From: Treponema sp.
GTDB taxonomy: Bacteria > Spirochaetota > Spirochaetia > Treponematales > Treponemataceae
Direction: 5' to 3'
NCBI GenBank assembly: GCA_018385395.1
Contig: JAHBAD010000114.1
Span: 1 to 42,465, forward strand
Length of the DNA stretch: 42,465 nucleotides
Shown here: piece by piece, positions 2,149 to 39,703 of the stretch
Layout of the letters: each line of letters begins with the position of its first letter
How positions within the stretch are numbered: the stretch's first letter is position 1
Notes under the pieces: model-generated
Told to the model about the DNA's origin: nothing
The model's database searches: none
What the model saw: only the letters and a program-made list of their open reading frames with translations
Translations under genes and position numbers: made by a program

Positions 2149-2205
2149 CCATATTCCGAAAAAATCCTTATAGAAAAAACGTTTTATCAAAGTTAATATG
2201 TGACC

Positions 2206-3771
2206 ATGAACAAAACTATTTTGAATCCTATTCTTCCGGGATTTTATCCCGATCCAACAGCATGTTGTGTAGACGGAGTTTATTACGTTGTAAACTCTTC
2301 TTTTGTATATTTCCCGGGGCTTCCTGTTTTCAAAAGTACAGATCTCTGTAACTGGGAACAGATTGGTAACGTAATTGACCGCCCTGAGCAGATGACATTC
2401 CTGAATCAGAGTACAAGCCGCGGGCTTTTTGCTCCTTGTATCCGTTATTCAAACGGAACTTTCTATTGTATTTGTACAAATGTTGATGCAGGCGGAAACT
2501 TCTTTGTAACAGCAAAAGATCCTGCAGGTCCATGGTCAAACCCTGTATTCATGCCAAAAGCAGACGGAATTGACCCTTCATTCTTCTTTGATGATGACGG
2601 GACTTGCTGGTATGTAGGAACTCATCCGGCTCCTGAAGGCTGCAAATACAATGGTAACTGGGAAATCTATATTCAGAAAGTAAATCTTGAAAACGGTGAC
2701 CTTGAAGGTGAACCAAAAGGAATCTGGCGTGGAGCTCTTAAAGACTGTATCTGGCCTGAAGGTCCCCATATCTACAAAATCAACGGATGGTATTACCTTC
2801 TCCACGCCGAAGGCGGTACAGGTCCTGAACACGCAGTAATGGTTGCACGTACAAAATCCCTTGATGAACCATTTGTTGGAAAACCTGCAAACCCGATTTT
2901 AACACACCGTCACCTTGGTATGGGAGCTGACATTGTTTATGTTGGACATGCAGATCTTTTTGAAGATAAGAACGGAAAATGGTGGCTGGTTCTTCTGGCA
3001 AGCCGTCCTTACTCAAACGATGGAAACAGACCTCGTTTCTGCAATATGGGACGCGAAACATTCATGGTTCCTGTTATGTGGGAAGATGAATGGCCATGGG
3101 CAAGCTGGCAGACTGGTCTTGTAGAAAAAGAATATGACACAGACGGAAACGTTCTCCGCCGTTACGATGCAAAGCTTGAAAAGAAGCTTCCAGCTCGTAA
3201 AACAGTATTCACAAAACCTGAACTGGATTACGAATGGATTTCTTTAAGAAATCGTAATCCTGAAAAAGTATTTATTAAAGACAATGCTCTGGTTCTTAAG
3301 GGGGCTGAAGATCTTGGAAGCTTGAAGGAAGCAAGCTTTGTTGCCCGCCGACAGATTGACTTCTCCTACTATGCTGAAGTGATTATGGATGCGGAACTTC
3401 CAAATGACGGAAATGCCGCAGGTCTTTCTTGTTTCCAGAATGAAGATTTCTTCTATAATCTGCAGGTTGTAAATAAAGGCGGAAAACTTGTTGTACAGGT
3501 TCTTCTCCGTGAAAAGGGTGAATATAAAGTTCTGGCAGAAAAAGCACTTCCTGAAGCAGACCCTGTTCCGACAGAAGTTGCAGGATTTACTTTGAGCGTT
3601 TCACAGAATCTTCAGAACCTTAGTTTTTACTGTAACGGAGAACTGATTCTTGCCGACGCAGATGCTTCCATGCTTTCTGTAGAAAAAGCAGGCGGTTTTG
3701 TTGGAACTGTAATCGGTATGTTCGCTTCTGGCGAAGGTGCCGAAGGAAGATTCAAGAGTTTTGAAATGTAA
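2206..3771 (+). CDS. glycoside hydrolase family 43 beta-xylosidase/alpha-L-arabinofuranosidase
   Basis: The 521-aa enzyme has the two-domain plan of GH43 xylosidases: a five-bladed propeller (about residues 5-310) and a C-terminal beta-sandwich (about 320-520). The three catalytic acids are visible: the base Asp16 in FYPDP, the pKa-modulating Asp123 in GIDPSFFFDDDG, and the acid Glu185 in WPEGPHIYK. No signal peptide is present, so it should act in the cytoplasm on imported xylo- or arabino-oligosaccharides. It is a single gene with no neighbouring sugar transporter. I chose the ATG at 2206 rather than the GTG two codons earlier because the conserved N-terminus starts right there. There is no Shine-Dalgarno, but TAATAT lies 6 nt upstream. 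Xylosidase versus arabinofuranosidase specificity cannot be decided from sequence alone. Confidence 0.92.
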   Translation: MNKTILNPILPGFYPDPTACCVDGVYYVVNSSFVYFPGLPVFKSTDLCNWEQIGNVIDRPEQMTFLNQSTSRGLFAPCIRYSNGTFYCICTNVDAGGNFFVTAKDPAGPWSNPVFMPKADGIDPSFFFDDDGTCWYVGTHPAPEGCKYNGNWEIYIQKVNLENGDLEGEPKGIWRGALKDCIWPEGPHIYKINGWYYLLHAEGGTGPEHAVMVARTKSLDEPFVGKPANPILTHRHLGMGADIVYVGHADLFEDKNGKWWLVLLASRPYSNDGNRPRFCNMGRETFMVPVMWEDEWPWASWQTGLVEKEYDTDGNVLRRYDAKLEKKLPARKTVFTKPELDYEWISLRNRNPEKVFIKDNALVLKGAEDLGSLKEASFVARRQIDFSYYAEVIMDAELPNDGNAAGLSCFQNEDFFYNLQVVNKGGKLVVQVLLREKGEYKVLAEKALPEADPVPTEVAGFTLSVSQNLQNLSFYCNGELILADADASMLSVEKAGGFVGTVIGMFASGEGAEGRFKSFEM

Positions 3772-3800
3772 AATATTCGACTGCAAAGTCCGGCCGGATG

Positions 3801-3837
3801 AAAAGACTGTGTCAGAAAATGATGCAGTCTTTTTTTT
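3801..3837 (+). terminator. terminator of GH43 gene
   Basis: AAAAGACTG (3801-3809) pairs with CAGTCTTTT (3825-3833), loop 15 nt, followed by a T-run to 3837. It sits 30 nt after the GH43 stop codon. Confidence 0.8.
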
Positions 3838-3858: not shown

Positions 3859-3893
3859 TAAAATTCAAAAAAAGGAAAAAGGTGAGTAAAATA

Positions 3894-3947
3894 ATGGAAA
3901 AAAGAAGGAAGAACACTTCCTCTGTAAAGTTTCCTGAGAAAAATTGA
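3894..3947 (+). CDS. possible 17-residue leader peptide upstream of omptin
   Basis: A short ORF reads MEKRRKNTSSVKFPEKN and ends with TGA one base before the omptin ATG (TGA-G-ATG). It has a better ribosome-binding site (AAGGTGAG about 7 nt before its ATG) than the omptin gene itself, which has only weak GAG within the uORF end. The arrangement fits translational coupling or a leader peptide. The peptide is basic and has no recognisable domain. It may also be chance, so confidence is low. Confidence 0.35.
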   Translation: MEKRRKNTSSVKFPEKN

Positions 3948-3948
3948 G

Positions 3949-4896
3949 ATGAAAAAGATATTTTTTACTATTTTTAGTTTTGTTTTCTCATTTGGGTTAT
4001 TTGCAGGGGAGAAATTTGAGATAAGCATTACCCCGGAAGTGGGAATGTATTTCGGACAGATCAGGGAGCATGTTTTTGACTTTGATGGAACAGAAAGATA
4101 TTTAATGAGCCGTCTGGATTGGGATATTGATCCTATGCCTTTTTGTGGAATAAAAGTTGATCTGGATGTTTTTAAGCATCTGGAAATAAATGCTGATGGA
4201 CGTATTGGGTATACAGGCCGTTGTGGACAGATGCAGGATTATGACTGGATGGGAAGTGATAAAACAAAGAATACTCATTATTCCTGGCATGAAAATTACC
4301 TGGAAAATTATGTTGCATTTTCGACTCAAATAGGATGGAAAATAAACCTGAAGGAAGGTGCTTTATTAACGCCATCATTGATGATTCGAGGAGAGAACTT
4401 TTATTTTAGTGGATGGAATGGTTATTCTCAATATGCCTGGGATAATAAAGTTGAATATTGGCATGAAGATTTGTTGAAAAAGGATATGACGGGAAATGTA
4501 ATTTCTTATAGACAAAATCGGTTTTTTGGAGATGTTGGTTGGAATCTGTCGGTTCCTGTAACTTCACATTTTATGTTTTCATATTCTTTCTTTTTGGGCA
4601 TATATCATTATATTACAGGACATGATTTTCATAATCTTCGAGAAGATGAATTTCTGGATGTTATTTATGGATATGGTTTGAGTGAAGTCATATTTGATAT
4701 GAATTTAACTTATAAAATTAATAAGAATAATATATTTGATTTTAAAATAGCAATGCAAGAAGTTCCGCTGTTGATTGGTGATACTTATCAGAAAAAATTT
4801 GATAGAAACTGGAGTGACGGAGATATGTTCAAAAACGGTGGAGGCGCTTCTTCAACAATTTATTCCCTTGGGGTAAATTATACCTTAAAGTTCTAG
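3949..4896 (+). CDS. omptin-family outer-membrane protease (OmpT-like beta-barrel)
   Basis: The 315-aa protein has a clear signal peptide (MKKIFFTIFSFVFSFGLFAG) and a beta-barrel pattern ending in an aromatic residue (YTLKF). It matches omptins from memory along its length: MSRLDWDIDPMPFCGIKVDL corresponds to the OmpT SQLDWKF region, CGQMQDYDWMGS to OmpT NMVDQDWMDS, and GHDFHNL to OmpT NDEHYD. This places the four catalytic residues at Asp97, Asp99, Asp226 and His228, with nearly the same spacing as OmpT Asp83/85 and Asp210/His212. At the OmpT LPS-binding site (Tyr134, Glu136, Arg138) the alignment reads Arg, Glu149, Phe151, so two contacts seem lost. The gene is visibly more AT-rich than its neighbours, with many TTA, ATA and AAT codons, which suggests transfer. 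Family assignment is from motif recall, not a search. Confidence 0.8.
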   Translation: MKKIFFTIFSFVFSFGLFAGEKFEISITPEVGMYFGQIREHVFDFDGTERYLMSRLDWDIDPMPFCGIKVDLDVFKHLEINADGRIGYTGRCGQMQDYDWMGSDKTKNTHYSWHENYLENYVAFSTQIGWKINLKEGALLTPSLMIRGENFYFSGWNGYSQYAWDNKVEYWHEDLLKKDMTGNVISYRQNRFFGDVGWNLSVPVTSHFMFSYSFFLGIYHYITGHDFHNLREDEFLDVIYGYGLSEVIFDMNLTYKINKNNIFDFKIAMQEVPLLIGDTYQKKFDRNWSDGDMFKNGGGASSTIYSLGVNYTLKF

Positions 4897-4907
4897 TTTT
4901 TTTGGGG

Positions 4908-4990
4908 TCCGGGGTATCCCCGGAGAAGGGGTAGCGGACATGCAACAAAGCGGAGCGAGTTGCATGGGAGCGAGGGGAAGGCTTTCCCCT
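4908..4990. repeat. cluster of three hairpins between convergent genes
   Basis: Three perfect 7-bp stems follow one another: TCCGGGG/CCCCGGA (4908-4924), ATGCAAC/GTTGCAT (4940-4965) and AGGGGAA/TTCCCCT (4973-4990). The block fills the gap between the omptin gene and the convergent DTW gene. It resembles an extragenic palindromic repeat unit and could act as a two-way terminator, although only the plus-side entry has a long T-run, and that lies before the first stem. Confidence 0.6.
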
Positions 4991-4991
4991 A

Positions 4992-5681
4992 CTAAAAATC
5001 AGGAATATCCCGGAGCTTTGAATATTTTGCGTCTTTCTGATGTACGTTTGGACGGAGTCCCAGGATGCGTTCGTTTTCTGCCTGAAGCTGGAATTTTATC
5101 ATGGCTTTAAAAGCGTCCATCATCGGTTCAGGATTGACGTTTTTGTCTGTAATGCCGTTATCCTGGAATTCTTTTATGAGGTAATAGCAGCTTTCCACCG
5201 TAGAAATATATTCCGGCTCAGGTTCTTTTTTGAAAGTATAAATTGAACGATAGTCACCGTAAAAAGAAAGGCGAGGAAGGTTCAGCAGGAAAGGATTGTG
5301 CTGGATCATTTTTTTTGCGCACCACCAGGTGGAATCCAGAATGATAGGAAGGGGAATGCGGCCCTTCAGTGTTTCTTTGAAACCTTCTTTTTTTGCGGTC
5401 CAGGCTTCGGGACCAGGAAACATCATCATAGGAAAATAGCGGTGATCGTGAAGAAGTTCCTGAAGCCGTTTGTTTTCGGCAAAATCTAAGCCCATGATTA
5501 TTTCGCAGCCTGTAAGAGAGATGCGGGCAATGTGTCCGGTGCCTGTGCGGTTTTTCTTTGCTTCTTTTGGATGCATCAGGAGTACGAATTTGATGCCTGA
5601 ATCCATTTCTTTTGTGTATGAGCAAAGGCAGCAGGCCTTTGGTTTGAAACAATTGTAACAAAATTCTGCCATAAATTTCAT
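4992..5681 (-). CDS. DTW-domain protein, tRNA-uridine aminocarboxypropyltransferase
   Basis: The 229-aa protein belongs to the DTW family (E. coli YfiP/TapT and related), which transfers the 3-amino-3-carboxypropyl group from S-adenosylmethionine to uridine in tRNA (acp3U). Visible signatures are the N-terminal cysteine cluster CYNCFKPKACCLC (residues 8-20), probably zinc binding, the HPKEAKKNRTGTGHIAR block (about 37-53), the name-giving motif as DSTW at 116-119, and ISTVES near 160-165. Length is normal for the family. It is transcribed alone, convergent with the omptin gene. Its upstream region meets the divergent glycine-riboswitch promoter. No obvious Shine-Dalgarno precedes the ATG. The tRNA target in this organism is not shown by sequence. 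Confidence 0.88.
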   Translation of the reverse strand: MKFMAEFCYNCFKPKACCLCSYTKEMDSGIKFVLLMHPKEAKKNRTGTGHIARISLTGCEIIMGLDFAENKRLQELLHDHRYFPMMMFPGPEAWTAKKEGFKETLKGRIPLPIILDSTWWCAKKMIQHNPFLLNLPRLSFYGDYRSIYTFKKEPEPEYISTVESCYYLIKEFQDNGITDKNVNPEPMMDAFKAMIKFQLQAENERILGLRPNVHQKDAKYSKLRDIPDF

Positions 5682-7393: not shown

Positions 7394-7438
7394 AAAGACC
7401 GCTGTACGGAAATGTTTCTGTATAAGCGGTCTTTTTTT
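7394..7438 (+). terminator. terminator of symporter gene
   Basis: AAAGACCGCT (7394-7403) pairs with AGCGGTCTTT (7425-7434). An inner stem ACGGAAA/TTTCTGT extends the helix, and the T-run reaches 7438. The T-run merges with the start of the 87-bp dispersed repeat. Confidence 0.9.
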
Positions 7439-7519
7439 ATTTTGGGTATATGCTGGTCAGATACCCAAAAAACGGCTGAGTCAAGGCCTTGAGCGAAGCG
7501 TGCCTTGACCGGTCGTATT
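7433..7519. repeat. 87-bp dispersed double-hairpin repeat, copy A
   Basis: This segment is 86/87 identical to 18762-18848 (the only difference is at 7475 versus 18804). It contains two hairpins: TTTTGGGTAT/ATACCCAAAA with an 11-nt loop, and GTCAAGGC/GCCTTGAC flanked by partially complementary GGCTGA and CGGTC. It starts on the T-tract of the symporter terminator. No ORF is inside. It is probably a miniature or REP-type mobile repeat. Confidence 0.85.
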
Positions 7520-18740: not shown

Positions 18741-18767
18741 GCCACCCGTCCCTGGGTGGCATTTTTT
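18741..18767 (+). terminator. terminator of the outer-membrane protein operon
   Basis: GCCACCC (18741-18747) pairs with GGGTGGC (18754-18760), loop 6 nt, then A and six T. The 87-bp repeat copy B starts on this T-tract. Confidence 0.9.
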
Positions 18768-18848
18768 ATTTTGGGTATATGCTGGTCAGATACCCAAAAA
18801 ACGACTGAGTCAAGGCCTTGAGCGAAGCGTGCCTTGACCGGTCGTATT
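18762..18848. repeat. 87-bp dispersed double-hairpin repeat, copy B
   Basis: 86/87 identity with 7433-7519. Like copy A, it begins on the T-run of an intrinsic terminator and ends shortly before the -10 region of the next gene. The two copies are in the same orientation relative to transcription. No flanking target duplication is obvious beyond the shared T-rich sequence. Confidence 0.85.
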
Positions 18849-31598: not shown

Positions 31599-34500
31599 AT
31601 GAGAAAAGTATTATGCCTTTTGTTTATCAGTTTATCATTATTATTTATTACTGGTTGTCCTAAAGACAGTTCATCAAATTTAAAAATAACTGATGCTCAA
31701 GAAGAGAAAGTCTCTTCTGTTCCTGTTATTTCAACGAATGTTTCTATTAAAGATGCGGCTCACGCGGCATTCAGTCTGGATTATACTCCTGTGGAACCGG
31801 AACCTAAAAAGCCTGCCGGTAAAATCAATATGTCCGCAGGAACTTCGTCAGGTTCCTCTTCCGGAACTGAGAAAAATGAATCAGTAATTCCAGGTTTAAG
31901 GAAACTTGAAGATTACAAGACAAAATACTACACATCAAAACTTGTAGACGGCAAAAATAATTCGCCTGCTATGGATGAAAAAATGGATCCAGCTAAAGCT
32001 CCAAATGAGCCCTTTACCATTACAGACTGGGGACCAAACGGGGGCATCCCGGCTGATGTAAAATGTCCTTCTTTTTATGTTCTTTTTTCTGAACCCGTTA
32101 TTCCGTTAAAGGCTCTTGATGATCCAATGACTACAAGTGACATTATGGAAATTACACCAAAGCTTAAAGGTGTGTTCCGCTGGTATGGAACAAGTCTTTT
32201 AAGTTTTGACGCAACTGAAGCAGCAAATCCTCTTGAAACTTATACAATTAAAATCAGTGATAAAGTTACTTCTATGTATGGTAAAAAACTTGAAGGAGAA
32301 AAAACTTTTGTTACTGAAGCTCAGGAATTGAAAGTTGAAAATTTTTATCCGGGATTTTCATATAAACGTCTTTCTATGACCTGGTTTGATAAGGACGATG
32401 TTCCTTTTGAAGCCGCAAAGGAATGCCGTGTCACTTACAATTATGATGTCCAGGCTTCGCAGATACAGGAACTTTCAAATGTTACAGCTGGAATAAATAA
32501 AGTAACTTTCACAGTAACTCAGGAAACACCGGATACAGTAACATTTAATATTAATCTTCCGAAAAAGTTGAACGATTTTGATGAAATTAAAATTACTACT
32601 TTTCAGCCAAACAGTAAAAATGGAAACAGTTGTGTCATAAGATACAATGTATTGAAACCTTTCAAAGTAACCCGTGTGTCTGACGGTGAAACAAACAATC
32701 GTTATTCAAATCCAGTTTACATAAACTTCTCTCATATGGTTGATGAAAAAACTGTTTCTGGAAATATTTCTACAGTTCCGGAAATGGCTGTTACAAAAGA
32801 CAATATAAAAGTGACAGGAACTTCTGTTACAGTTTTCAATCTGCCGGTTACTTTTGGGGAAAAATATAAGATTTGTGTTGGAAGTGGTGTAAAAGATATT
32901 TATGGGCGTAGCCTTACAAAGGAAAGTGTTACAACTATTACGGTTCCAGATGCGGCAAGTGAAGTAAATTTTTCAAACCATGGAATGAAAATGCTTGAAT
33001 CAAATTTTCCGCACAAAATGGTTTTTGATTATCAGAATGTCCGTGAAGGTTCTTATTATAAACTTGCAAAAACAAAGCAGCCTTTTGAAGCTTATGAATA
33101 CACATTTGACAGCAATGAAGTGGTTGTAAATCTTGAGCGAGAACCAAAGAATACCCGACTGCTGGAATCTGTGGATTTTGATAAGGTTCTGGACGGAGAA
33201 AAAGGCTGGATTGCTTTTGAAGCAGATGTTAATTTGTGGAACCGTCATTCAGAAAAAACTTATAACCGAACAAACAATGTTACAGTTCAAGTAACAGATC
33301 TTGGTGTAACAGTTCGTTATGGTATAAATAAAATTGTTGCCTTTGTAACAAAGCTTTCTGATGGAAGTCCTGTTAAAGATGCCAAAGTGTTCTGGTTCAG
33401 CGAAGAAAACAGAAAAATCACTCTTGATACAATGATGAATGTCGCCGTTGCAAAAGGAACAACTGACGAAAACGGACTTGCTGTTATTGAGACTGATTTA
33501 AGGACAATCAAAGCTCCGGCAATTCTGATTGTAACTGATGATGATAAAGTGACTTTCAGACCTGACAGCCATAGTCCATGGAGAAACGGAATCTATAATA
33601 CTTCAAGTTATTATACGGCGGGTCAGTCAGAACAGCAGACTTTCCTGTTCTGTGACCGGGGACTTTATAAACCTGGTGAAACAATTTCGATTCGTGGAAT
33701 AGACCGCAATCTTCTGTTTGGCGAATATACTCCATGGGTTGGAAGCTATTCGGTTTCGTTGAAGGAAGATTCATGGTACAGACCAAAAACTATTTCTTCC
33801 ATTTCTGGAAAGACTTCTGAGTCGGGAGGGTTCAGCGGTACCTTTGTGATTCCTGAAGACCTTGAACCTGGTAATTATAAAATTGAATATATCCGGCAGG
33901 ATAAAAACAGCGGGAAAAGCATTACAGTAAACATTGCATACTTTGAACGTCTTAAGTTCCAGTCTTCTATTAGTATTCCAAATGTTCCTGTTACAACAGG
34001 AGACAGTGTTTCGGGAACTCTTTCTGCATCTTATCTTGCAGGCGGTGCTTTAAGCGGTGCAGAATACACAAGTTCATGGATAAGTGAACCATGGTATTTT
34101 AAAACAGCTGATGTTGAATTCAAAGGGTTCAGATTCGGACCCATTGATGCTAATGGCGGGCGAAATAATATAAGTGCCGACAGAGGTGCTCTTTCGCCTG
34201 ACGGCGAAGCAAAACTTTCTGTGACAGCAATGCCTGGTGAATTGAAAGGCGTTCCATACCGTTACAGAGTTTCAGCTGATGTTACTGACAGTTCAAATCA
34301 GAGCATTTCTACTCAGGCTGCAACAGTGGTGCATCCGGCTCTTTATTATATTGGTCTTGGAAAGCCTGCAGGACTTTCAGGATTTGCAAAAGCCGGACAG
34401 ACTCTTTCTTATCCGTATAAAGTGGCAGATCTTCAGGGGGTTGCTGTAAGCAAGGCAGATAATCCTGAAAAACTTATTTCGGCTCTTGCTGGCGAAAATA

Positions 34501-37500
34501 AAAATCTTTCTGTAACTTTAAGTCGTGAAGTCTGGACTCTTGTTCAGCAGAACGGTCTTTATGGTGGTGTTTATACACGCTATGAAAAAAGTGAAGAAGT
34601 TGAAGAAACAAAATCAATTCCTCTTTCAGCAGAAGGGAAAATTGAATTAACTCCAAAAAAAGTTGGAAACTATATTCTGAAGGTTGAAGGAGCTGATGTA
34701 AAAGGACGGCCTGTATTAAGTGAATACCGTTTCTTTGTTACAGGTAAAGGTTCTTATTCATGGAGACAGGATGATGCAACATCAATCCGCCTGACACCTG
34801 ACCAGAATAAATATAATCCTGGAGATACTGCTCACATCCTTATGGAAAGTACTCTGCCAAACGGAAACTATCTGATTACTGTTGAGCGCGAAGGAATTTT
34901 CACAGAAGAAATCAAACATTTTGAAGACGGTGTTGCAGTATTTGATGTTCCGGTCGCAAAAAATTATGTTCCGGTGGTTTATGTTTCAATTTCATCTTAT
35001 TCAATTCGTAATGGAGAACCGACACATAAATACGGTGAAGCAGACCTGGATAAACCAAAAGGATATTACGGTGTTACAGAGCTTTTTGTAGATCCTTACG
35101 TTAAAGCTTTCAGTATTGATGTTAAATCGGAAAAGACAGCTTATCGTCCTGGAGAAGAAGCTACAGTAACTCTGACTGCAACACGGGGTGGAAAACCTGT
35201 TCCAAACGCAGAACTTACACTTATGGCTGTTGACCGCGGTGTTCTGGATCTGATTAATTATCATGTTCCGAATCCAATTGAATTCTTCTATAATGCAGAT
35301 AAATTCCCTCTGCGCTGTTACGGGGGAGATTCCCGCGGCTACCTTATGGACCCTGTAACATATGAAGTAAAAAATCTTCAGGGAGGAGACGAAGGAGACG
35401 GAGACAAGCTTCAGGAAAGAAGTGATTTTAATCCGACTGCAGTATTTGAACCTGTTCTTGTAACAGATGAAAAAGGACAGGTAACCTGTAAGTTCAAATT
35501 GCCTGACACTCTTACAACTTATCGCGTTACAGCCTTTGGTGTTTGCGGAGACCTTCTTGCTCTTCAGGAAGATGAAATCGGAGTCAGAAATCCTGTGAAC
35601 GTTCAGCAGGTTTTGCCTCGCAGGCTTCGCGAACGTGATACAGCTGAACTTGGTGTGCTCCTTACAAACCTGGACAATGTGCCTCACAAAATGAAAGTCG
35701 CACTAGACCTGAATACTCCAGAGCAGAATGAAATTGCTTCTGAAGGCGGTCTTTCAAAACGTCCGGGTTCAGCATTTGTTGACGGGGCTCAAGAACATGA
35801 AGTGACAGTTCAGCCTGGTCAGAATGTTACAGTTTATTTTGACGCATCTGCAAAGAAAGCGGGTATTGTTAATGTTGTATTTACAGTAACTTCCGATGTT
35901 GTAAACGAGCGTATTACAGTTCCGCTTATTATAGAAAAGCCTTATCTTTACGAAACCTTTACCACAATCGGTACTGTAGGTTCTGATGAATCAACTGGAA
36001 GCCAGGCTATGATTATTCCGGATTCTGTTGATGATATGGGCGGTCTTACTGTAACACTTGATGCTACAAGACTTGGAACTCTTGGCGAATCTGTAAATTA
36101 CGTATTCAATTATCCTTACGGTTGTATGGAACAGCAGTCTTCAAGAATTCTTCCTCTGGTGATTTTTGAAGAATATATAGATGTGTTTGGCCTTGAAAAA
36201 GATCATCATATTGGAGACGTAAGAACTCTTGTTAAGAGCTATTTCAAGAAATGGAAAAATGTTCAGCATGCAAACGGTGGCTTCCCTTACTGGCCAGATG
36301 ACAGCAGGTTTGAAAGCTTCTATGTTTCACTGAGACTTGCTCATATTGCGGCTCTAGCAAAACAGCGGGGATATACAGATTCTGAAATTGCTTATGACGT
36401 AAGTAACCTGATGAGTTATCTTGAAAATCAGATTACAAATCCAAAATATCATTTCTCTGATTTTGAAACAGCCATGTATTATTATGTCCGTTCACTTTTA
36501 GGTATTGATGTAAGCAAATCGAAACTTGAAGGTCTGTACGCAAAAACAACTGATATTTCTGTAACTTCACTTGTGGGAATGACATATCTGAATATGAACG
36601 GAATGGAATCTGAACTTGCAGAAAAATGCCGTTCAAGAATCAGAACTTATATCAGACCGGGTACACGCGGACTTGATATTTCTCAGGATGCCCACTGGTA
36701 CACAAGCTGGTACAATACCAATGATGACCGTATGGCTCTGACACTTCAGTTCTTTGTTCAGATGGATAAAGATGATGAAATGGTAACACGACTTATCTGG
36801 AGCCTTCTTGAAAATCAGAAAGCCGGTTACTGGCAGAGTACAGCTACAACTGCAAAAGTTCTTGAAGCTATGTATACAGTAATAAAGGTTTCAGATCTTG
36901 ATAATTTGTATCAGAAAGCAAGAGGACTTATTGGGGGAAAAGAAATTGTCAGCGGAACATTTAAAGGTCCTGCTGCAAAACCTGTTACGGCTACAATTCC
37001 GTTTACAGATCCAAGAATCTCTTTGCTTGAAAAAGACAAGCTTCAGACTCTTGACTTTGAAAAAGAAGGAAACGGAAGTCTTTATTATACTGCAAGTTTG
37101 AAGTACGCAATTCCTTATGAAAATCAGGATGCCCGTGATGAAGGACTTGGGGTAACTTACGTTATTACAGATGTTTTGACAGGCGAAGAAATCAGACCGA
37201 AGTCAGGAACCTCTTTACTGGAACTTGAAAGTGGACGTGTATATTCTGCAAAGGTTAAGCTTTCTACAAGCCGGGACCGTCAGTTTATTGCTATGCGTGC
37301 GCCTGTTCCTTCCGGGGCTGAAATCCTTGATTCGACCTTTGTTACAAGTCCTGATGACAGTTATTCGGGAACAAGTTACGATGATGGAAATCATTATGAC
37401 TGGGGCCACTGGATGAGTAATCAGGCAATTTACGATAATGAAATTCAGTTCTTCTGGGATCGCTTCAGAAAAGGAAGTACAACAGCAGAATTTAAGTTCC

Positions 37501-37607
37501 GTGCGGTACGCCGCGGTGTATTCCCGGTTCCTCCTGTAACGGCTGAATGTATGTATGAACCTGAAGTGTTCGGCCGTACAAAGGGACTTCTGTACACAAT
37601 TAAATAA
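31599..37607 (+). CDS. alpha-2-macroglobulin family lipoprotein with thioester site
   Basis: The 2002-aa protein has a lipoprotein signal (LLFITGC, lipidated Cys20) and the domain order of bacterial alpha-2-macroglobulins: several MG domains, a bait-like region, a MG10-type segment with VTDEKGQVTCKFKLPDTLTTYRV, and the thioester domain with YGCMEQQSSR at Cys1509, the CxEQ motif that forms the internal thioester. The next domain (SLRLAHIAALAKQRGYTDSEIAYD and following) is the helical terpenoid-cyclase-like fold. Such proteins trap attacking proteases by covalent capture in the periplasm. The downstream PBP1C gene starts inside its stop codon (TAATG). This pairing is known from other bacteria and is thought to link protease defence to cell-wall repair. 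Confidence 0.95.
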   Translation: MRKVLCLLFISLSLLFITGCPKDSSSNLKITDAQEEKVSSVPVISTNVSIKDAAHAAFSLDYTPVEPEPKKPAGKINMSAGTSSGSSSGTEKNESVIPGLRKLEDYKTKYYTSKLVDGKNNSPAMDEKMDPAKAPNEPFTITDWGPNGGIPADVKCPSFYVLFSEPVIPLKALDDPMTTSDIMEITPKLKGVFRWYGTSLLSFDATEAANPLETYTIKISDKVTSMYGKKLEGEKTFVTEAQELKVENFYPGFSYKRLSMTWFDKDDVPFEAAKECRVTYNYDVQASQIQELSNVTAGINKVTFTVTQETPDTVTFNINLPKKLNDFDEIKITTFQPNSKNGNSCVIRYNVLKPFKVTRVSDGETNNRYSNPVYINFSHMVDEKTVSGNISTVPEMAVTKDNIKVTGTSVTVFNLPVTFGEKYKICVGSGVKDIYGRSLTKESVTTITVPDAASEVNFSNHGMKMLESNFPHKMVFDYQNVREGSYYKLAKTKQPFEAYEYTFDSNEVVVNLEREPKNTRLLESVDFDKVLDGEKGWIAFEADVNLWNRHSEKTYNRTNNVTVQVTDLGVTVRYGINKIVAFVTKLSDGSPVKDAKVFWFSEENRKITLDTMMNVAVAKGTTDENGLAVIETDLRTIKAPAILIVTDDDKVTFRPDSHSPWRNGIYNTSSYYTAGQSEQQTFLFCDRGLYKPGETISIRGIDRNLLFGEYTPWVGSYSVSLKEDSWYRPKTISSISGKTSESGGFSGTFVIPEDLEPGNYKIEYIRQDKNSGKSITVNIAYFERLKFQSSISIPNVPVTTGDSVSGTLSASYLAGGALSGAEYTSSWISEPWYFKTADVEFKGFRFGPIDANGGRNNISADRGALSPDGEAKLSVTAMPGELKGVPYRYRVSADVTDSSNQSISTQAATVVHPALYYIGLGKPAGLSGFAKAGQTLSYPYKVADLQGVAVSKADNPEKLISALAGENKNLSVTLSREVWTLVQQNGLYGGVYTRYEKSEEVEETKSIPLSAEGKIELTPKKVGNYILKVEGADVKGRPVLSEYRFFVTGKGSYSWRQDDATSIRLTPDQNKYNPGDTAHILMESTLPNGNYLITVEREGIFTEEIKHFEDGVAVFDVPVAKNYVPVVYVSISSYSIRNGEPTHKYGEADLDKPKGYYGVTELFVDPYVKAFSIDVKSEKTAYRPGEEATVTLTATRGGKPVPNAELTLMAVDRGVLDLINYHVPNPIEFFYNADKFPLRCYGGDSRGYLMDPVTYEVKNLQGGDEGDGDKLQERSDFNPTAVFEPVLVTDEKGQVTCKFKLPDTLTTYRVTAFGVCGDLLALQEDEIGVRNPVNVQQVLPRRLRERDTAELGVLLTNLDNVPHKMKVALDLNTPEQNEIASEGGLSKRPGSAFVDGAQEHEVTVQPGQNVTVYFDASAKKAGIVNVVFTVTSDVVNERITVPLIIEKPYLYETFTTIGTVGSDESTGSQAMIIPDSVDDMGGLTVTLDATRLGTLGESVNYVFNYPYGCMEQQSSRILPLVIFEEYIDVFGLEKDHHIGDVRTLVKSYFKKWKNVQHANGGFPYWPDDSRFESFYVSLRLAHIAALAKQRGYTDSEIAYDVSNLMSYLENQITNPKYHFSDFETAMYYYVRSLLGIDVSKSKLEGLYAKTTDISVTSLVGMTYLNMNGMESELAEKCRSRIRTYIRPGTRGLDISQDAHWYTSWYNTNDDRMALTLQFFVQMDKDDEMVTRLIWSLLENQKAGYWQSTATTAKVLEAMYTVIKVSDLDNLYQKARGLIGGKEIVSGTFKGPAAKPVTATIPFTDPRISLLEKDKLQTLDFEKEGNGSLYYTASLKYAIPYENQDARDEGLGVTYVITDVLTGEEIRPKSGTSLLELESGRVYSAKVKLSTSRDRQFIAMRAPVPSGAEILDSTFVTSPDDSYSGTSYDDGNHYDWGHWMSNQAIYDNEIQFFWDRFRKGSTTAEFKFRAVRRGVFPVPPVTAECMYEPEVFGRTKGLLYTIK

Positions 37608-39703
37608 TGAAAAAAATATTTATGGCGGCTGTCATTGTGATTAGTCCAATACTTGTCACAATGGCAGTTGTCCGTTTTTCGCCTTATAAAGGATTAAATC
37701 AAATCCAGTCTCAAAAAATCTCAACACGTATTTACGATGTAAACGGAGAACTTGTTCAGGTACTTGCTTTGGAAGAAGGGGTACGCCGTGAATTTACGGC
37801 TCTTGAAGATATGCCTCAAAATGTTATAGAAGCTTTTATTCAGGCAGAAGACAAGCGGTTTTATAAACATCATGGTGTCGATTTTCAGGCCATAATCAGG
37901 GCGGCTGGAACCAATGCAAAAGAGGGGCGTACCGTAAGCGGTGCATCCACAATTACTATGCAGCTTGCAAGAATTATTTCACCACGCCCAATAAGAAATA
38001 TATCTGCAAAAATTGCAGAGTCATGGAACGCTCTTAGACTTGAAAGCCGTCTTTCCAAAAAAGAGATTCTTGAGCTTTATTTAAATAATGTTCCCTTCGG
38101 TTTTAATACCGAAGGAGTAACTAGTGCTGCCCGCTATTTTTTTGGAAAGACAATTTACTCTTTAACTCAAAAAGAAATTGAAACTCTTGCAAAAATTCCG
38201 CGCCGTCCAAAGGCTTATGCTCATATAGCAGGAAAATATTCTTATCCCTTTGAACTTCCGCATTATGTGAACTGGTTGAAAAGTCAGGAAGGAACAGTAC
38301 TTTATGAGATGCCGGAAATTCATCTTTCAGTTTCCTTGTCAGTTCAAAAAAAATGTGAAGAGCTCCTTGGTTCCAGAACAGATATGTATGCTGATAACCG
38401 GCTTTCAAACGGTGCTGTTCTGGCGCTGGAAGTTGAAAACGGAAATGTTATTGCATGGGCTGGAAGTGCTTCTTTTACTGATGAAGAGCATTCAGGCCAG
38501 ATAGACGGCGTTCTGGTGCAGAATCAGCCGGGGTCAAGCATGAAGCCTTTTTTGTACGCTCTGGCTCTGGAACATGGCGTGAAACCCAATTCGGTTCTTC
38601 CTGACACTCCTATGGAATTTGGTTTTGATGAACTTTATGTACCTCAGAATTTTAACAACAGATACAATGGACCTGTCCGGTTCCGGGTAGCCCTTGCTTC
38701 AAGCCTTAATATTCCGGCAGTTTATCTTTTAAATGAAATAGGTCTTGAACCATACAAAAATAAACTGCTGGAGCTTGGTTTTGATTCTTTACAGAATCAG
38801 GACCCGGGACTTTCACTTGCCCTTGGAAGCGGAGAGATAAGTCTTTACGAATTAACACGGGCTTTTTCTGTCTTCCCGCGGGACGGCGTTTCGCTTGACG
38901 GTAAGCAGATTTATGAACCTGATACTGCAAGAATTATCTGCGATATTCTTTCCGATTCTGATGCACGTGCTTTGGGATTCGGCTATGCCAAAGTTTTTCA
39001 GACGTCATATGATTCTATGTTCAAAACAGGGACAGCAAATCAGTTCCAGAATATTACAGCCCTTGCGGCAAGCGGACGCTATGTTGTCGGTGTGTGGATG
39101 GGAAACTTTTCCGGGGAAACAATTGTTGGTAAAACAGGAAGTTCTATTCCTGCCGCCATTGCCCGCCAAGTTCTGGATATGCTTGAAAGTGACGGAAAAC
39201 CACAGAAAAAATTTAAAACTCCTGTAAACTATCAGAAGGTAAAAATCTGTTCTCTTTCAGGAATGCTGGCAGGTCCTTTCTGCGAAAATACAGTTTTTGA
39301 GTATATTCTAAAAACTTCGGCTTCAGACAAAGCCCGATCCGATGAAATCTGTAATTGGCATCAAAGTAAGACCGTAATTTATCCTGAAAAATATGCTTCC
39401 TGGTTTATTTTGAAAAACCGGCAGGGGACTCTGGACTATGGAAATGAGCCTTTAAAAATTATATCTCCACGTAATGGCAGCGTTTTTTATTTTGATGAAA
39501 GTTCAGGGTTGAAGGATTTTCAGAAACTGACAGTTGATGTTATGGGCGGGGAAAGTGATTTTTGCAGGATTTTTGTTGATGGTGAATATGCAGGCGAAAG
39601 CAGTCGACCTTTCATTTTCAGATTACCATTAACTCGCGGAAAGCATGTTCTGCAGGTTAGGTCTGGAAATGAAAGTGACAGTATTATGTTTACAGTTAAT
39701 TAA
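37607..39703 (+). CDS. pbpC: penicillin-binding protein 1C (bifunctional peptidoglycan synthase)
   Basis: The 698-aa protein has an N-terminal membrane anchor, a GT51 glycosyltransferase domain (catalytic Glu81 in IQAEDKRFYKHHGVD, then STITMQLARI and ELYLNNVPFG), and a transpeptidase domain with active-site Ser310 in PGSSMKPF and the KTG motif at Lys473 (KTGTANQ). The C-terminal 100 residues form the PBP1C-type extra domain. It polymerises and cross-links peptidoglycan. It is translationally coupled to the macroglobulin gene (TAATG). Its 3' end overlaps the convergent SPOR gene by 8 bp. Length is close to the family's usual 700-770 aa. Confidence 0.95.
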   Translation: MKKIFMAAVIVISPILVTMAVVRFSPYKGLNQIQSQKISTRIYDVNGELVQVLALEEGVRREFTALEDMPQNVIEAFIQAEDKRFYKHHGVDFQAIIRAAGTNAKEGRTVSGASTITMQLARIISPRPIRNISAKIAESWNALRLESRLSKKEILELYLNNVPFGFNTEGVTSAARYFFGKTIYSLTQKEIETLAKIPRRPKAYAHIAGKYSYPFELPHYVNWLKSQEGTVLYEMPEIHLSVSLSVQKKCEELLGSRTDMYADNRLSNGAVLALEVENGNVIAWAGSASFTDEEHSGQIDGVLVQNQPGSSMKPFLYALALEHGVKPNSVLPDTPMEFGFDELYVPQNFNNRYNGPVRFRVALASSLNIPAVYLLNEIGLEPYKNKLLELGFDSLQNQDPGLSLALGSGEISLYELTRAFSVFPRDGVSLDGKQIYEPDTARIICDILSDSDARALGFGYAKVFQTSYDSMFKTGTANQFQNITALAASGRYVVGVWMGNFSGETIVGKTGSSIPAAIARQVLDMLESDGKPQKKFKTPVNYQKVKICSLSGMLAGPFCENTVFEYILKTSASDKARSDEICNWHQSKTVIYPEKYASWFILKNRQGTLDYGNEPLKIISPRNGSVFYFDESSGLKDFQKLTVDVMGGESDFCRIFVDGEYAGESSRPFIFRLPLTRGKHVLQVRSGNESDSIMFTVN

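Follow-up and report, generated by a model that had tools for sequence, protein, structure and literature searches.

A 315-residue open reading frame in the 42,465-nucleotide stretch of Treponema sp. DNA analysed here (the window; assembly GCA_018385395.1, contig JAHBAD010000114.1) encodes, with near certainty, a true omptin. We consider it probable that this protease comes from a long-established spirochaete lineage of omptins able to function without lipopolysaccharide (LPS) and that its specificity is shifted; its gene is held at a fixed site, and outside the active-site groove the protein diverges fast.

The search against the Pfam Omptin family (PF01278; MEROPS A26), whose failure the original prediction had named as the outcome that would speak against it, returned a match of 71.8 bits (E 6.3e-20; cut-off 22.6 bits) covering positions 4-282 of the 283-position profile; family searches show the gene to be single-copy in the window's genome. 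Among solved structures, Pla is the best match by sequence (E 5.5e-7), and the OmpT chain 7xw0 is matched as well. An AlphaFold2 model, for which the protein was aligned with relatives from named Treponema and a single one from Pseudomonas, predicts a ten-stranded outer-membrane beta-barrel (pLDDT 90, pTM 0.84). Its top structural matches are omptins only, with OmpT chain 1i78_B at Z 31.4 (2.2 Å over 281 residues) and Pla chain 2x4m_B at Z 31.2, and the nearest non-omptin fold, OpcA, reaches Z 19.2. Profile coverage and superposition thus bear out the expectation that the likeness to OmpT runs through the whole barrel. The family assignment as such is routine database knowledge. The features discussed below are collected in Table 1.

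Table 1. Features of the omptin gene and its surroundings in the window; residues are numbered as in the window protein, and OmpT residues as in mature OmpT.
Feature	Position	Strand	Evidence
GH43 gene, conserved left flank, proteins 94-97% identical across the five genomes	2200..3771	+	Pfam; identity comparison
Terminator-like hairpin between GH43 gene and omptin	3800..3834	+	Pattern scan: 15-pair stem followed by a run of T
3' tail (35 bases) of lost SstT-type symporter gene, deletion scar	3893..3927	+	blastn to G080 4968-5002; upstream alignment
Omptin-family outer-membrane protease gene, 315 aa	3949..4896	+	PF01278; AlphaFold2 model; fold match to OmpT/Pla
Predicted signal peptide, ~residues 1-20 (MKKIFF...GLFAG)	3949..4008	+	Sequence reading; model helix 2-18 precedes first strand
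Glu40 = OmpT S1-pocket Glu27, invariant in 61/61 spirochaete omptins	4066..4068	+	Alignment
Asp97 and Asp99 = OmpT Asp83/Asp85, outer end of strand 3	4237..4245	+	Alignments, model
His110 = OmpT Asp97 (S1' pocket); Asn/His in 58/61 spirochaete omptins	4276..4278	+	Alignment; role from PMC11410778
Ile146-Arg-Gly148-Glu-Asn150 = OmpT LPS-contact motif Tyr134-Gln-Glu136-Ser-Arg138 by alignment, unconserved	4384..4398	+	MAFFT, hhalign
Gly224 = OmpT S1-pocket Asp208	4618..4620	+	Alignment; role from PMC11410778
Asp226 and His228 = OmpT Asp210/His212, outer end of strand 7	4624..4632	+	Alignments, model
DTW-domain gene, right flank, 90-96% protein identity	4992..5681	-	Pfam; identity comparison

The alignments retain the complete catalytic tetrad named in the original prediction, Asp97, Asp99, Asp226 and His228, which corresponds to Asp83, Asp85, Asp210 and His212 of mature OmpT. 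In the model, both catalytic pairs sit at the outer ends of their strands on the same side of the barrel, which, with a global superposition to go by, is consistent with their facing each other across the groove. Across 61 spirochaete omptins, the positions of OmpT Glu27, Asp85, Ser99, Asp210 and His212 are invariant, and Asp83, and with it the tetrad, is kept in 59; in L049 and L055 this first catalytic Asp is replaced by Asn. Such invariance argues for retained catalysis, and we infer that the window omptin is proteolytically active. The specificity pocket has fared differently from that of OmpT, in which Glu27 and Asp208 belong to S1 and Asp97 to S1' (PMC11410778). Of these three acids the window protein retains the Glu alone; Asp208 is kept in 9 of the 61 spirochaete proteins and the S1' Asp97 in 1. 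The replacement of the second S1 acid and of the S1' acid by Gly224 and His110 probably weakens or shifts the dibasic preference of OmpT, and the cleavage preference of the window omptin is thus likely to differ from that of the E. coli enzyme.

The residues through which OmpT contacts LPS had been predicted to be altered here, and they are, although not in the way first read: the Arg, Glu and Phe originally assigned to Tyr134, Glu136 and Arg138 each lie one residue too far on, and two MAFFT alignments and hhalign agree on Ile146, Gly148 and Asn150. Over the full motif of the OmpT/Pla group (Tyr134, Glu136, Arg138, Arg175, Lys226), the window protein reads Ile, Gly, Asn, Asn and Tyr, and of the 61 spirochaete proteins, 1 retains Glu136 and 5 retain Arg138. 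The enterobacterial contact residues are likewise missing from the rhizobial omptins examined and from a Pseudomonas omptin. Rhizobial hosts carry LPS, so altered contact positions are not diagnostic of LPS dependence. OmpT mutants in which three or all five motif residues are changed also remain active and are still stimulated by LPS (PMC7356225), and in Pla, Arg138 matters (PMC3724046). We have therefore rejected the triad as evidence for LPS independence; the motif is a mark of one omptin branch and no test of a requirement for LPS.

The distribution of LPS genes is more informative. LpxC (PF03331) occurs in 110 of 393 genomes sampled from the phylum, all of them outside the window's class, Spirochaetia, whereas 99 of the 121 omptin-bearing genomes in the same sample fall inside it. 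None of these 99, the window's genome included, has LpxC; comparison of the two lists finds omptin and LpxC together in seven genomes, all outside Spirochaetia. Family searches of the window's genome (84% complete) gave no match to LpxC, LpxB or the Kdo-transferase domain PF04413, which departs from the LPS-making hosts of the OmpT/Pla group and agrees with the reported loss of Kdo2-lipid A genes in Spirochaetaceae (PMC3087551). The premise of a treponeme without classical LPS thus withstood the gene check that had been suggested for it. The literature presents rough LPS as a requirement of omptin proteases (PMC3724046). For a branch whose active site is preserved although its class is devoid of LPS, LPS-free activity is the best explanation. 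The proposal of an omptin freed from LPS accordingly draws its support from the 99 genomes and not from the contact residues. The window omptin is likely LPS-independent, possibly helped by another glycolipid.

A stronger version of that last point is that the enzyme still needs an LPS-like cofactor, a Treponema glycolipid that would attach to the barrel and switch it on in the way LPS activates OmpT. Treponemes do have other glycolipids, T. pallidum keeps an Lpt route that presumably exports a glycolipid (PMC8407342), and the absence of LpxC is compatible with another glycolipid in the role of LPS; at the columns of the OmpT LPS contacts, however, no basic or charged patch is conserved across the 61 sequences, and we regard an obligatory cofactor as rather unlikely. 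The other early proposal, that the gene was recently acquired from Proteobacteria by horizontal transfer, fared worse and appears to us very improbable indeed. Its starting point was correct, since the omptin has the lowest GC content of the 23 open reading frames in the window (0.334, z -3.9), and its codon fit is also the poorest (z -2.1). GC3, however, is ordinary (z -0.85), which places most of the AT-richness in the first and second codon positions, and throughout the genus omptin genes tend to be AT-richer than their flanks (by 3.5 GC points on average, against 9.4 in the window). Moreover, of 196 genomes of the genus 138 carry an omptin (73 of the 84 good ones), with Treponema bryantii among the carriers, the gene occupies the same site in four sister genomes, and in the tree a branch with support 97 separates 57 spirochaete omptins from nine proteobacterial ones (E. 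coli K-12, plasmids, L110). The view that omptins are mainly enterobacterial is true of the literature and not of the genomes. On sequence grounds, the spirochaete omptins are an old branch of the family, widespread in the genus and the phylum.

Some observations on individual omptins were made along the way. The same omptin protein is found in L056 (G457) and L090. The omptin of L032 (G394) reaches 277 bits against the Pfam profile, well ahead of every other one, perhaps because it belongs to the seed of that profile. Tandem pairs of divergent omptin genes occur in G097:C79, G019:C124, G129:C1 and G187:C42.

The window's genome and its four sisters (together G000, G070, G056, G029 and G080) share the gene order GH43, omptin, DTW, symporter, ABC-F, ClpP. 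In three of the five, a further gene, which we take to be an SstT-type symporter, lies intact between GH43 and omptin. Since the window retains the last 35 bases of this gene, the arrangement is inherited and the symporter has been lost here. The alignment with the sister genomes also disposes of a candidate leader peptide at 3894-3947, which is the tail of the lost gene. Directly after the omptin stop lies a GC-rich, palindrome-rich stretch (4905-4990), possibly of an intergenic repeat family; in G056 the omptin is followed by a similar stretch, in G029 and G080 by other GC-rich ones. Elsewhere in the window there are an 87-base direct repeat (7433-7519 and 18762-18848, 99% identical, 11 kb apart), by its look an intergenic dispersed element, and a 55-base repeat in three copies (80-100% identical) within 576-777. 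At 31599-39703, a bacterial alpha-2-macroglobulin gene (a protease trap of 2002 aa) adjoins one for a penicillin-binding protein (transglycosylase and BiPBP_C).

Within this conserved setting the omptin stands out by its divergence: a sister genome can have the same neighbours at high identity and an omptin only about one third identical. Over the five genomes, omptin protein identity is 28-50%, versus 94-97% for GH43, 90-96% for DTW and 93-98% for ClpP. The corresponding dN is 0.42-0.82 versus 0.01-0.07 for these three genes, and dS is 1.2-2.6 versus 0.15-1.4 for the flanks, the endonuclease left out. Less conserved neighbours are the nuclease (68-73%), g10187 (73-94%) and the G080 symporter (76-77%). 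Two outer-membrane controls do not show such divergence: TolC is 78-84% identical to the window's copy, and four genomes compared for the BamA barrel give 67-77%. The trimeric-autotransporter control (PF03895) gave no matches. At the DNA level, alignment ends, bar short stretches, with the GH43 gene and resumes at 4992 (4886 in G056). The change is not indiscriminate. All catalytic residues are among the 46 of 315 positions that are invariant in the five-genome alignment, and segment 93-118, which holds Asp97 and Asp99, is the best conserved of the segments measured (54%); selection thus appears to keep the protease site and to free the rest.

The same pattern recurs beyond these five genomes. 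For 39 genome pairs with DTW identity of at least 90%, omptin identity averages 47% (range 29-96). Among the best 30 loci of the genus, 16 have a common upstream gene and 18 a common downstream gene, presumably RluA-like and TlyC-like, respectively, as named from sequence features. At this second site, G168 and G003 have flanks 96% and 95% identical and omptins 56% identical, and G105 and G112 have flanks at 97% and 90% and omptins at 59%. The opposite case is seen in some clades, for example in G085 and G021, whose omptins are 96% identical. By comparison of sequences across these loci, fast divergence at a fixed site is general in the genus. It is worth noting that the omptin regions of L023, L025, L026 and L028 are 98-99% identical over 2.3-3.4 kb while their DTW proteins are 52-88% identical, a pattern that may mean either that the region has spread recently or that contigs were mis-binned, G098 being the main suspect.

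What drives this divergence can be read in several ways. A plausible cause would be that the protein is exposed at the surface and attacked by the host, phage or protozoa; omptin pairs have dN/dS below 1 and saturated dS, values that give no evidence of positive selection. It is also possible, although we lean against it, that the different omptins found at one site are whole alleles swapped in by recombination from other Treponema, rather than products of rapid change in place. The dS of the omptin exceeds that of most flanks, the DNA alignment breaks near the gene ends, and nearly identical omptin regions occur in some distantly related genomes. Furthermore, the nearest relative of G000 is G029 by GH43 and ABC-F, G070 by DTW and G056 by the omptin tree; given these conflicting affinities, local allele exchange probably contributes. 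Yet in the genus tree the omptins of the five syntenic loci group together as a single clade (SH-aLRT 94, not decisive), so that the donors would need to be close relatives, the divergence extends over all strands instead of falling into blocks, and dS is unreliable at such distances. Another account would have protease activity lost and the barrel turned into an adhesin or structural protein, with divergence as relaxed constraint. The freedom of most of the protein to change and the loss of pocket acids would fit, but relaxed constraint would not spare exactly the catalytic residues, nor leave the Asp97/Asp99 segment best conserved, and we hold loss of activity to be improbable. Change in place of a protease that is presumably surface-exposed and active, with some exchange of alleles, is the reading that we carry forward.

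Comparison with known systems sets the window omptin apart in several respects. OmpT of Escherichia coli (PDB 1I78) shares its ten-stranded barrel, four catalytic residues and S1 Glu27, but is 18-19% identical in structural searches, and has Asp208, Asp97 and Tyr134/Glu136/Arg138 where the window protein, from a host with no detected LPS pathway, has Gly, His and Ile/Gly/Asn. Pla of Yersinia pestis (PDB 2X4M, 2X55, 4DCB) has the same fold (Z 30-31) and catalytic residues and is the closest solved structure by sequence, yet it is 16-18% identical in structural searches, its activity is described as LPS-dependent (PMC3724046), and no evidence here speaks for plasminogen activation by the window omptin. 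Rhizobial omptins (for example from Mesorhizobium and Rhizobium leguminosarum plasmids) likewise combine a kept tetrad with the absence of the enterobacterial contact triad, but group with the other proteobacterial omptins, apart from the spirochaete ones. Omptins from other Treponema (T. bryantii, MAGs from rumen and gut) share the branch, the catalytic residues and the fixed-site divergence; most of the best 30 genus loci, however, lie between RluA-like and TlyC-like genes, and the window's between GH43 and DTW. In the literature searched, we found no description of Treponema omptins. C5N99_10335 of Treponema medium, a barrel whose I-TASSER model has OmpT as a structural analogue, was set aside as a precedent because of its size (~22-24 kDa, predicted 8-stranded) and OmpA-type top match (PMC7171239), and a Leptospira protein has been modelled as Pla-like (PMC5406399). 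The LPS-less setting, the altered pocket and the fixed-site divergence appear to be undescribed in that literature.

We propose a mode of action in which the Asp97/Asp99 and Asp226/His228 pairs of the ten-stranded barrel would face the outside, activate a water molecule and cut exposed peptides. The old spirochaete branch would perform this reaction in an outer membrane without lipopolysaccharide. With Glu40 kept and Gly224 and His110 in place of acids, a preference for dibasic sites would probably be weakened or shifted. The gene is inherited at its fixed chromosomal site while the protein, outside the active-site groove, changes much faster than its neighbours, most likely through its exposure at the cell surface. 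Its likely job would be to cut peptides in the gut, antimicrobial ones or others of host or microbial origin.

More broadly, and only tentatively, since we put it somewhat short of an even chance, Spirochaetia may possess an old omptin branch that cuts proteins free of LPS, which Treponema would maintain as a fixed-site hypervariable protease, its groove frozen and the identity of the rest between species ~30% against ~95% for the flanks, as host, phage or protozoa drive it in an arms race. An LPS-less branch with an intact active site lends itself naturally to asking whether omptins depend on LPS in essence or whether it is an enterobacterial add-on. For the treponemes of the gut, a common group that has received little study, a fast-diverging gene at a fixed site points to a surface factor under pressure.
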